A DNA stretch of 64,000 bases. It comes from Strigops habroptila. Lineage: Eukaryota > Chordata > Aves > Psittaciformes > Psittacidae. The position numbers and the translations under genes were made by a program. Where the stretch lies: the NCBI RefSeq assembly GCF_004027225.2, contig NC_044302.2, forward strand, positions 72,784,993 to 72,848,992, written 5' to 3'. The notes below the pieces were generated by a model. It made no database searches, had not been told where the DNA came from, and worked only from the letters and a program-made list of their open reading frames with translations. Within the stretch, counting starts at the first letter, position 1; each line of letters opens with the position of its first letter. This document shows positions 31,069 to 35,644 of the stretch, in pieces.

Positions 31069-31569
31069 TGTCATAAATTGTGACCACAACGGATCATAAT
31101 CCAATTAAAATTTTATTAATTATAGCAAGTAGAATATGAGCAAAAACAGCGCTGGACGACAGGGGAGTCTGCGCTCCGCCACTGCCGTGCTGAGCAGTTC
31201 AAACAGTCCCTTTTTATACATCTTTACTTCCGTGTTCATGAAGTAGTGGAGGTACTCTGCGCATGCTTCAGTTGTTGTTAGGGGGTCGTTTTCTACCTCC
31301 TGGTGGTCGTTGAGGCCGAAATAAGAAGTCTTTCTCCTTTATCCCATAGTTGACCCCTCATTCACATGTCCTTATCTGGGGTTGTTTGTCCTGTTTCTGT
31401 CGGTTCCTGGAAGTCTGGCGGTTATCTCGCGATTGTGGTTATCTTATCTTACTCAAGCAGTGTCCGAGTTTCTGTCTGCATAAGCGATTTCACATCTTTG
31501 TTGCCTAACCTTTACATTGAGCTTAACATAAATCTTAATAAACAATATCCTAGTCCATAGTTTCTCACA
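31069..31569 (-). repeat. 3' LTR of the provirus
   Basis: 501 bp, TG...CA. It contains on the minus strand TATAAAAA (31211-31218) and an AATAAA polyadenylation signal (31112-31117), which is the functional one in this LTR. Confidence 0.95.
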
Positions 31570-31604: not shown

Positions 31605-31871
31605 TTAGACGTTACTTTCATTTTCGGCACTGCGAACAAACCTTTTTCCACAATCCCAACATTTATCATAACACTCACAAGGTAATACCTCACAATTACA
31701 AAAGGCATAGTTCTCACGTGGCATAATGCATTCACAACAATCTTCATCTTCATTAATAGATACACTCTTATATTTTGCCCCAGACCTCGTAGTTAAAATA
31801 AGCAGTTTAGCTATGTCAAACCGTTCTTTAATAAAGTGTATTTTATGTTTGTTATTGTCTAGTTCATAGGT
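31605..31871 (-). other. open frame with nine-cysteine cluster in the env position of the provirus
   Basis: 88 codons with no ATG at the start. They follow a TAA (31872-31874) that separates them from an open stretch upstream in the same frame (from 32099). An acidic EDED is followed by nine Cys in about 30 residues: CCEC, then FCNC, then PCECYDKCWDC, ending in a basic tail. Spacing of C-x-C and C-x-x-C pairs suggests metal binding (inference). It may be a second exon of a spliced product or a relic. I do not recognise the family. Confidence 0.5.
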
Positions 31872-31971
31872 TTATGAGGGTTTCCATTTGCTTGGGTTAT
31901 TATCAATAACAAAACTAATGGTATACCAGAAAAAAGGGTGTCTGTTAATTTTTGCCAATTTAAGTATATTT

Positions 31972-32667
31972 TTACCAGTCCTGGGGAAGTTCAGCCATTG
32001 CTGCTTTTGTGTCCCATCGTTCTGGTTCTTTTCTCCACAGTTTGTTCCTCCTCTGCCTCGCCCGTCGACTCGGTTGCTTCGAGCCACGGGGTGTACCATC
32101 TTCTCGGCAGCAAGGGAATTCTTCAGGAGAACAGTTGTTTCGGGCTTTCTGCCTGTTTATATAGGCTTCCCACTTTGCAGCTTTAACTAATGGGGCAAAG
32201 TAAGACACGGTCAGTACTTCCCTTCTGCATTTTATAACCAAAATTTCAGCTACAAAGGGGACTGGTTCGTTGGAGTGGTAGCAATAATATTGAGGGTTTA
32301 TTCCTTTGGCAAAAATTTCCCACCACTCATGGGATTCCCGAATAATTTCTTGTTTAGACTCTAATTGTTTTAATTTCCACTCAGTGAGAGTTCTTTGGAT
32401 TTTCCAACACTGTGTGCAAACTCCTATTGGAGGGTATCCACATTCACAATGTGTCTACCATTTATCCTGGCATACCTTACACCTAAAACAAGCAAATGGA
32501 TAACAATTGCAGTTCAAATCATTACACCTAATTCGTATATCTAGAGTGCATATATTATTTACATCAACATATCTTCTATATTTAATATTGTGAGGTTGCA
32601 TAAGTTTAGCAATTTCCTTCAACACACTTTGTACGCTTCCATATATAATAGAAAAAAAGAGAAATAA
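31972..32667 (-). other. cysteine-rich and arginine-rich frame in the env position (one internal TAG)
   Basis: Open on the minus strand from 32667 to a TAG at 32455-32457, then on to a TAA at 31972. The first part (70 codons) ends in a cysteine cluster: seven Cys in its last 31 residues, including NCNCYPFACFRCKVC. Just past the TAG follow HCECGYPPIGVCTQC, a Trp/Glu/Lys-rich middle, and an arginine-rich motif (SKQPSRRARQRRNKLWRK). The sequence of a Cys cluster followed later by an Arg-rich motif is reminiscent of small retroviral regulatory proteins that bind zinc and RNA. That is analogy, not homology. Whether the TAG is fixed in the family or is private damage cannot be told from one copy. 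No ATG begins the frame near 32667, so splicing would be needed. Confidence 0.5.
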
Positions 32668-32746
32668 TTATAGCAAATATAAACAGCAATACACACTTTA
32701 TACCGAAAGGTAATGCGGCAAAATAATCAAATAAAGTCTTTATCAT
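32606..32746 (-). CDS. small single-helix membrane ORF in the provirus
   Basis: 46 codons from ATG to TAA. It starts five bases downstream of the integrase-frame stop. Residues 1-17 are amphipathic (MIKTLFDYFAALPFGIK). Residues 18-36 are a clear transmembrane segment (CVLLFIFAIIISLFFYYIW), followed by a short basic, Cys-containing tail (KRTKCVEGNC). It could be the left-over membrane anchor and tail of an envelope TM protein or a separate small membrane protein. It overlaps the start of the cysteine-rich frame in another register. Confidence 0.5.
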   Translation of the reverse strand: MIKTLFDYFAALPFGIKCVLLFIFAIIISLFFYYIWKRTKCVEGNC

Positions 32747-32750
32747 TACG

Positions 32751-33370
32751 TTATCTTTTCAGGGTTATCTTGGTGTCACCTGGAGTACTGATTACTTTCC
32801 AGTGGGGTCTCGTCACTGGGCCTTTAATGCGACTGGCATGAGTCCATCCACGCTCAGCAGTTCGGACAGCTGTTTCTGTTGTAAGCAAAACAAGATAAGG
32901 TCCCTCCCAATTGGGTTTTAGGGTTTCTTCCTTCCACACTTTAATCAATATCCAATCCCCAGGTTTAACATTATGAATTTTTAAGTCCAACGGGGGTCGT
33001 TGTACAATCAGTCCATGTTCCCAAAGCTTGTTACGATGTTCTGCTAATTGTGAAACATATTCATTAATCACACGGTCTCGAATTAAAACATTTGTTTGTG
33101 GACTTTCAATTCTATAAGACATTCCATACACCATTTCAAACGCTGATATTCCTACATCTGCTCGGGGTCTGGTTCTGAGAATTAATAGTGCCATGGGTAG
33201 GCACTTAATCCATGATAATTTGGTTTCTATCATTAATTTAGTCAAAATAGTTTTGATTTCTCCATTTATCCTTTCAACTTTTCCCGAACTTTGTGGATGC
33301 CATGGTGTATGGTATTCCCACTTAATCCCCAAGCTTTCAGCTAGATCTTTAACAATTTTTGACACAAAGT
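32751..33370 (-). pseudogene. pol: integrase carboxyl-terminal fragment of the provirus
   Basis: About 200 codons of a gammaretrovirus-type integrase from just after the second catalytic Asp region (SKIVKDLAESLGIKWEYHTP) through the third catalytic Glu (SSGKVERINGEIK) to the SH3-like carboxyl-terminal domain (KPGDWILIKVWKEETLKPNW-type). The zinc-binding amino domain and the first two catalytic Asp residues are gone, so it has no strand-transfer activity. It begins at a deletion joint near 33365-33375 and is out of frame with the reverse transcriptase stub before it. The gene ends at TAA/TGA-type stop at 32751. Confidence 0.9.
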
Positions 33371-34747
33371 GTCTTGTGCTAACAATCGATCAATTTCTGG
33401 TTTTAATCCCCTCCGTCCTTCTAGGGATATGGGATATTGCCTTACCCTCACAGGTATGTGGGGTTCGGAAAGTTGGATTTTAATCGGTGGGATTTTCAGT
33501 CTACTAATTGTGTCCGGAGAGTACCAGACATCGGGGTTAATTTGTTTTTGATCATCCACGGTTAAAGGATAAGCAGACACTGTTAGCTCCGGATTTTTCA
33601 CTTTAATTTCTAATTGCAATTCAACAATTAAATCTCGTCCTAACAGATTAAATTCTGCTTCAGGGACGAGCAAGAGTTCACCCATTCCAAATTTATTTTC
33701 AGTTTCGAATACCACATTTTTGATTTTGCTTATTTTAAAGGGTTCTCCTTTTGCCCCAATTACTTGTACCTTTTCAGGGGAAACTTTACATCCCTCAGGT
33801 ATTTGCTTAATAGTTGATTTCTCAGCCCCAGTGTCTACTAAAAAGGTGAACTCTTGTTTATGGGGACCTATTTTTAATTTTATCAAGGGCTCATGATGAC
33901 TCCGGTCCCCTAAGATATAGAGCCCCTGACTCTCTGCTTGGGGTCCCTGGGCATGTTGAGCATCCCACAGTCTCATTCCTGCTCGTCTAATCATATCTCT
34001 TTCCTCGGTAGTAAATAATTGACCAAGGATAGATTGCATCTCATCCCAAGTATAAAGGTTTGGTCCCAAAAATTGATTTAATCTTTCTGCCACTCCCAGT
34101 GGGTCCTCAATTAAGTTTCCCATTTCGGTTCTTTTAAAATCTCGTAGGTCAGCCGAGTTTAGGGGTACGGAAATATATCCGATCACAGGTTGAGGTCCCC
34201 CCATGGGTATTTCCCTTAGGGGGTACATCTGAGCTGCCCCTTTTTGACTTCTAGTTACGCGTCTAGGAAGAGGGGGAGACCCTTGTTCCGACTCTGGTGG
34301 GGGAGTGGGCGCTCTGGGGACTTCTGTGGAAGCAGGAGGAGGAATGTAAGGAGGGGGGGTTAGAAGGGTTTCGTCTAACTCTTCCTTCTTTTTCTTTTGT
34401 TTAGTTTTTATTTCATTCAGCGGATAAAGTCTAGCTCTCGGTCTTTCTAGCCACACTTCCGCATATTGACTCTCCTCCGGGTTAAGGGGATTTTTATTAT
34501 TAACCCAGAGGTTTAATTGCTGTCTTACCCAATCTTCTTCTGACCCATAGACTGGCCAAAAGACATTTTTAGAAATCTTCTTCCCTCCCCATATCTTAGT
34601 ACAATATTCTATCATTTTTTGCTTATCTTTCCCTAGGGTTCCAGGGGAATATCTCCAATTGTCTAAGATATATGCCAGAGGGGTATTTTTAGGTACAGTG
34701 TGTACCCTCCCCATGGGAGTCGAAGGCTTGCTGCCCTTCGCCCCCAT
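33341..34747 (-). pseudogene. gag-pro: gag-protease fusion ORF of the provirus, internally deleted
   Basis: A 468-codon frame starting at the first ATG (34745-34747). Its product begins MGAKGSKPSTPMG, with a Gly-2 myristoylation signal as in matrix proteins. Matrix (to about residue 115) is followed by a basic/proline-rich stretch with a PPPY late-domain motif, then the front of capsid (IPMGGPQPVIGYISVPLNS, then EDPLGVAERLNQFLGPNLYT). Capsid then breaks off: its carboxyl half, the major homology region and the nucleocapsid zinc knuckle are missing. A retropepsin follows in the same frame (active site FLVDTGAEKST, second signature LLGRDLIVEL), then the first residues of reverse transcriptase (VRVRQYPISLEGRRGLKPEI), which stop at the second deletion joint. 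Normally gag and pol are separated by a stop codon; here the deletion removed it. Confidence 0.9.
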
Positions 34748-35120
34748 CTTCTGGGTTATCCACAAACACACACTCACTCGCTCCCCTTATTCCTGGCCCA
34801 GTCCCTCGCGGGAGGTGGAAAACGCAGTACTAAAGGGTCCACACTCGCTTGGTTCAGTATATCGAACCTCTCGTTCGTTATAATCCAGGATACCCAATCC
34901 CGCCCGAACGGCGAACCCGCGAACAACTTCGCAGTATACTTACGCGTCCTGCGTCTTCGTCCGGACTTCCGTGCACAGAATTTTATGGGATTTTACCGGT
35001 CCTTTTTTGCTCAATATCCTAGAATTTAGGTTCGTCGGTAAGGTTGGAGTGAGCTGTTGGTCGCGGGGCCGCGAAATGTCGCGGGGCGCCTCCCCGGAGG
35101 ACCAAAGCCCACCGTTCCTT

Positions 35121-35138
35121 ATCCGAGTCACGGCACCA
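35121..35138 (-). promoter_or_regulatory. primer-binding site, tRNA-His
   Basis: The plus strand reads atccgagtcacggcacca, which equals the last 15 bases of vertebrate tRNA-His plus CCA. The minus strand is therefore a perfect 18-nt primer-binding site, 5 bases inside the 5' LTR. Confidence 0.92.
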
Positions 35139-35143
35139 GAAAT

Positions 35144-35644
35144 TGTCATAAATTGTGACCACAACGGATCATAATCCAATTAAAATTTTATTAATTATAG
35201 CAAGTAGAATATGAGCAAAAACAGCGCTGGACGACAGGGGAGTCTGCGCTCCGCCACTGCCGTGCTGAGCAGTTCAAACAGTCCCTTTTTATACATCTTT
35301 ACTTCCGTGTTCATGAAGTAGTGGAGGTACTCTGCGCATGCTTCAGTTGTTGTTAGGGGGTCGTTTTCTACCTCCTGGTGGTCGTTGAGGCCGAAATAAG
35401 AAGTCTTTCTCCTTTATCCCATAGTTGACCCCTCATTCACATGTCCTTATCTGGGGTTGTTTGTCCTGTTTCTGTCGGTTCCTGGAAGTCTGGCGGTTAT
35501 CTCGCGATTGTGGTTATCTTATCTTACTCAAGCAGTGTCCGAGTTTCTGTCTGCATAAGCGATTTCACATCTTTGTTGCCTAACCTTTACATTGAGCTTA
35601 ACATAAATCTTAATAAACAATATCCTAGTCCATAGTTTCTCACA
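35144..35644 (-). repeat. 5' LTR of the provirus
   Basis: 501 bp, apparently identical to the 3' LTR. A TATA box (TATAAAAA) lies on the minus strand at 35286-35293, giving transcription leftwards, away from CDC37L1. Confidence 0.95.

Follow-up and report, generated by a model that had tools for sequence, protein, structure and literature searches.

In textbooks the gammaretrovirus-like viruses stand for the simple retroviruses, and members of the MLV group have, to our knowledge, few or no accessory genes. Lentiviral Tat and Rev, deltaretroviral Rex and foamy virus Tas are the products of small extra genes that overlap env, and that combine a cysteine-rich part with an arginine-rich stretch. 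In gammaretroviruses the cytoplasmic tail of the envelope protein (Env) is typically about 25-35 residues in length (PMC9967133 section 3.8). The chicken endogenous retrovirus (ERV) Ovex1 is reported, in the part of the source used here, to be without obvious accessory ORFs (PMC2717909).

We have analysed a stretch of 64,000 nucleotides of the Strigops habroptila genome (the window), where the original prediction had pointed to frames rich in cysteine and arginine between an integrase fragment and the 3′ LTR, and had suggested that these may be an undescribed accessory region. We conclude, with a probability of about 0.85, that the window contains a young, deleted copy of a gamma-type ERV, in which two of the frames (A and B) are a broken accessory gene for a proposed RNA-level regulator and the third (frame C) is the cytoplasmic tail of Env. 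The MLV-group reverse transcriptase (RT), the MLVIN_C end of the integrase, the TLV_coat Env and the 4-base flank are all shared with gammaretroviruses of the MLV group and class I ERVs. The family differs from these in that a further gene, which is conserved, lies between pol and env, and its Env tail is cysteine-rich and about 80 residues long, instead of the usual 25-35 (PMC9967133). Ovex1 is likewise an ERV of a bird, and its env-related frame is also gamma-like, but an accessory ORF is present in the family described here, whereas none is obvious in Ovex1 in the part of the source used (PMC2717909).

Anatomy of the element

The element lies on the minus strand of the window, as do all the features described here. 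Its 5′ LTR (35144..35644) and 3′ LTR (31069..31569) are identical at 501 of 501 bases, so the insertion is young. The sequence TGTA flanks it on each side, though within simple repeats. A likely primer binding site, which we take to be of the tRNA-His type, is found 3′ of the 5′ LTR at 35121..35138. The gag-protease frame (33341..34786, 481 codons; Pfam RVP, E = 5e-11) stops at a deletion that has removed most of pol, and on the other side of this is the C-terminal part of the integrase (32751..33389; Pfam MLVIN_C, E = 3e-11). The 1.2 kb that contains the odd frames is located 3′ of the integrase end. Ahead of the accessory frames is a small hydrophobic frame of 46 codons from its ATG (32606..32746), a possible gene, with five non-synonymous and three synonymous variants among copies. 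The window copy is a young, internally deleted gamma-type ERV, most likely of a bird. The gene order in full-length relatives is gag-pro-pol, accessory gene, env, LTR.

As originally described, frames A (32667-32455) and B (32454-31972) form one reading frame interrupted by a single TAG, at 32457-32455, and containing the arginine-rich motif RRARQRRNK. We count seven cysteine codons before the TAG and nine after it. The second frame with a nine-cysteine cluster was likewise found, at 31871-31605 (frame C, 88 codons), where all nine cysteines fall within 35 codons. The window has 308 frames that run for 60 codons or more without a stop, and in a single one of these, which covers a TG microsatellite, is cysteine denser over 35 codons than in frame C; frame A, with its seven, is tied third.

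An accessory gene between integrase and env

It is very probable that frames A and B are a broken copy of one accessory gene of about 209 codons, which begins at its own ATG (32601), lies between integrase and env and overlaps the start of env. The first part (32455..32601) runs for 48 codons from the ATG to the TAG and contains an N-terminal cysteine cluster, as seen from aligned relatives. The second (31972..32454, 160 codons), which is supported by database relatives, matches in the same genome and a test of selection, comprises the remainder of a Cys/His domain, a core and an arginine-rich C-terminus.

Searching with frame B retrieved 14 database proteins that are 48-92% identical to it. 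A profile made from 12 of the relatives found 16 proteins, four of them new, giving 18 in all. The only named one is the uncharacterised LOC126043156 of the goshawk Accipiter gentilis. Three of the 18 (P0002, P0003 and P0013) start at the position corresponding to the ATG of frame A and have a similar N-terminus, so that the statement that no ATG opens either frame does not hold. In an alignment of 17 sequences the usual N-terminal pattern is C-x4-C-x-C-x4-C-x2-C-x2-C, followed by a tryptophan pair, HC and another C-x2-C; short insertions occur in two members, and single cysteines are absent from a few. The Cys/His domain, which is probably zinc-binding, is followed by a core with a YCYH-type stretch. 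All 16 members that reach that far retain CCREDG, and 14 of the 16 have RRARQ followed by arginine or lysine.

The gene was also sought in the 1.15-Gb Strigops habroptila assembly. Intact copies are present. Of the best 91 matches to frame B, eight are part of frames that continue for 215-231 codons without a stop, and again eight stop-free matches are found among the best 91 when the distant relative P0012 is the query. The frames are open in some copies, and many others are broken. A stop codon at the junction of A and B is present in 23 of the 32 fetched copies with a readable junction, a sample that is not random since it consists of the 20 loci with the highest scores, one of them the copy in the window, and 12 chosen by hand, and from which L029, L030, L035 and L036 are left out as the junction is not covered. 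The TAG is therefore not private to the window copy; the junction stop is the mark of a subfamily. Half of the 32 copies also have four bases inserted or missing in A relative to the window. Copies in which the gene is broken have spread in large numbers, and so a protein made in cis was not needed for this; it was either supplied in trans or dispensable.

We note several further arrangements. In L029 (C1:69729300-69734800) and L030 (C2:87429000-87434500) a deletion has fused the integrase with the terminal part of frame B, giving a single open frame of 274 codons. Eight shorter copies (L002, L004, L008, L009, L012, L013, L015 and L016) share with the window only the sequence from about 32811 to the 3′ LTR, compared on the plus strand only. 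An LTR end lies about 1.1 kb upstream in these copies, so that pol is seemingly absent altogether, and yet they have multiplied. Among the matches listed, many of those of several ERV lineages are on contig C25 (37 Mb), which may be the W chromosome.

Within frame B upstream of the env ATG the 32 copies contain 12 non-synonymous, 17 synonymous and one stop variant. A synonymous share of 23% would be expected, and that observed is far higher (P = 8e-5, a rough value as variants were taken as independent and broken copies were included); the accessory frame upstream of env looks to be under purifying selection. Where the gene overlaps env there is no synonymous excess in either frame (15 non-synonymous, two synonymous and one stop variant in the accessory frame; 13, four and one in that of env). 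The arginine-rich stretch falls in this overlap without a signal of selection, yet it is conserved between the database relatives.

These data bear on the suggestion that nothing but decayed envelope or UTR of the ordinary kind is present in any of the frames. This is true of frame C, as described below, where decayed envelope is the outcome that the original prediction had named as refuting it. By contrast frame A, and frame B before 32099, are upstream of env, the overlap is in a different frame, and A and B have protein relatives of their own together with the synonymous excess. As an account of all the frames this is extremely improbable, and as an account of A and B it is refuted by the open copies in the same genome, the database relatives and the selection test.

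No significant match to A+B was found in Pfam. None was found in PDB sequences, nor by Foldseek against PDB or BFVD, nor in a second look at 50 chains with VIA-align. We found no description of the gene in the open-licence literature searched, and it is apparently undescribed. The idea of an undescribed accessory region is upheld for frames A and B by the open copies, protein relatives, selection and motifs, while frame C proves to be part of Env.

The lack of significant relatives in Pfam and PDB also argues against capture of a host gene by the retrovirus. Such capture by crocodilian ERVs is described in the part of the source used (PMC4299795), and the presence of the gene in some related proviruses and its absence from others (see below) would fit with it. 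Yet among the best 91 matches in the genome to frame B, and the best 91 to P0012, nothing stood out as a host gene, the surroundings having been inspected for part of these. We therefore regard a captured host gene as improbable.

Frame C and the envelope

Frame C is not a separate gene but the cytoplasmic tail of Env, so the candidacy of this frame as an accessory gene was rejected. In eight of the 11 full-length copies examined (L023-L026, L028, L031, L032 and L034) a single env frame of 721-728 codons extends over the interval between B and C and ends in frame C; the env frame is broken in L021, L022 and L027. The TLV_coat domain covers residues 140-655 of the 728 in the env frame of L026 (E = 2e-112), and frame C is the stretch behind the membrane anchor, forming the C-terminus of Env in that copy. 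Leaving aside L018 and L035, B and C are separated by 1749-1791 bases in 12 full-length copies, by 103-107 in env-deleted copies and by 145 in L030.

The window copy is without most of env, and the statement that it has no envelope gene is correct only in that sense. What remains at the 5′ side is an ATG within the accessory gene followed by what is left, with a frameshift, of the Env leader and signal peptide (31859..32099), and at the 3′ side frame C (31605..31871).

Of the 67 matches to frame C in the genome, 24 are inside open frames of 695-996 codons. The open frame around one match (G000:C6:49567886-49568125) has 996 codons, which is far in excess of the usual length of env. With the end of the anchor estimated, the tail has a length of about 80 residues. 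Within the family it has no significant excess of synonymous variants (12 non-synonymous, six synonymous and one stop; P = 0.23). A cysteine-rich tail is also present in the distant provirus L035, and is clear in two (L041 and L043) of eight further tail pieces; the cysteines are absent from L047, L052 and L054, ambiguous or shifted in L039 and L045, and L050 has no readable segment.

Overlap with env and expression

The ATG of env at 32099 lies inside frame B, within codons of the CREDG motif, and its context is strong. That of the accessory ATG at 32601 is weak, an arrangement that would favour leaky scanning. However, nine further ATGs intervene, so that separate splicing is no less likely an explanation. 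Acceptor-like sites were seen in the element in a crude scan.

A scan of RNA structure over 87 windows in two near-identical copies (L026 and L024) revealed no clear response element. The lowest folding z-scores (-3.0 and -3.7) are at the same place in both, 2601-2850, inside env. It might be supposed that the region is kept as a cis-acting RNA element for export or packaging, with the open frame a by-product, given that it is retained in deleted copies despite the broken frame. The position of these minima inside env and not in the accessory gene is against this, as are the synonymous changes above expectation upstream of env and the conservation of the protein (about 50% identity between lineages), and we consider it highly improbable.

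Distribution and retroviral class

The virus is, by its sequence, of gamma type or a class I ERV. The RT piece of the full-length copy L037 has its best PDB matches in RTs of the MLV group (E = 1e-101), the next group being at 6e-37, and this is accompanied by the MLVIN_C match and the TLV_coat Env. The integrase of L035, on contig C12, is 47% identical, and the protein in PDB that it matches best is the integrase of foamy virus (E = 1e-24). Since RT, MLVIN_C and Env are all of gamma type, this match is by itself no argument against the assignment.

At the same place L035 has broken pieces of the accessory gene, which the profile matched at E = 2e-16, 2e-12 and 1e-4 when run on a small set of sequences. 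No match to the gene was found in five proviruses with integrases 85-92% identical to that of L035, nor in two at 60-62%. As no accessory gene was detected in these seven related proviruses, not every member of the group depends on it, and its presence varies among related pols, through recombination or through loss. In L038, L040, L042, L044 and L048, proviruses in which the accessory gene is not detectable, a short stretch around the start of env is faintly like the C-terminus of the accessory protein (CC, G, PR and P), and is possibly a remnant.

A conserved reading frame is thus present between pol and env, additional to gag, pol and env. The genome is accordingly not the simple one that lacks accessory genes, but has the extra frame that distinguishes complex retroviruses.

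Possible function of the accessory protein

The accessory gene encodes an N-terminal Cys/His domain, probably zinc-binding, a compact core and an arginine-rich C-terminus. The protein would be made from a spliced mRNA and could enter the nucleus, as the arginine-rich stretch suggests. There it may bind nucleic acid, in the simplest case viral RNA, and might raise the expression or export of viral RNA. It would then act in the manner of Tat, Rev or Tas, although no kinship to these is detectable. The resemblance to Tat, Rev, Rex and Tas lies in a small extra gene with a cysteine-rich part, an arginine-rich stretch and an overlap with env. The accessory gene differs from them in that no match of sequence or fold was found, and in domain order, size and viral genus. 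We put a role as an RNA-level regulator at slightly below an even chance.

The protein might instead counter a host restriction factor, like Vif or foamy virus Bet, and not regulate viral RNA. Accessory genes just 5′ of env in other complex retroviruses are often antagonists of restriction factors, and a zinc-type domain with conserved tryptophan fits many adaptor proteins. Yet the arginine-rich C-terminus is conserved, and such a feature is more often that of a nuclear regulator that binds RNA; we think an antagonist unlikely.

Implications

Taking the envelope tail and the accessory gene together accounts for frames that on a plain reading would be put down to a missing envelope. The accessory protein belongs to a family with a fairly confident predicted model for which no fold match was found, and the annotation of a bird genome already includes one member, which is directly testable. 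That a further gene is conserved in members of the gammaretrovirus-like branch, in this case in two proviral lineages of one genome that have diverged, would show that complex genomes arose in that branch too. It is possible, though we would not put it as high as even odds, that these elements represent an unrecognised group of complex gamma-type retroviruses that colonised birds recently, with a nuclear zinc- and RNA-binding regulator of unseen fold and an Env with a zinc-binding tail. If this is true, complex regulation arose independently within the gammaretrovirus-like branch.
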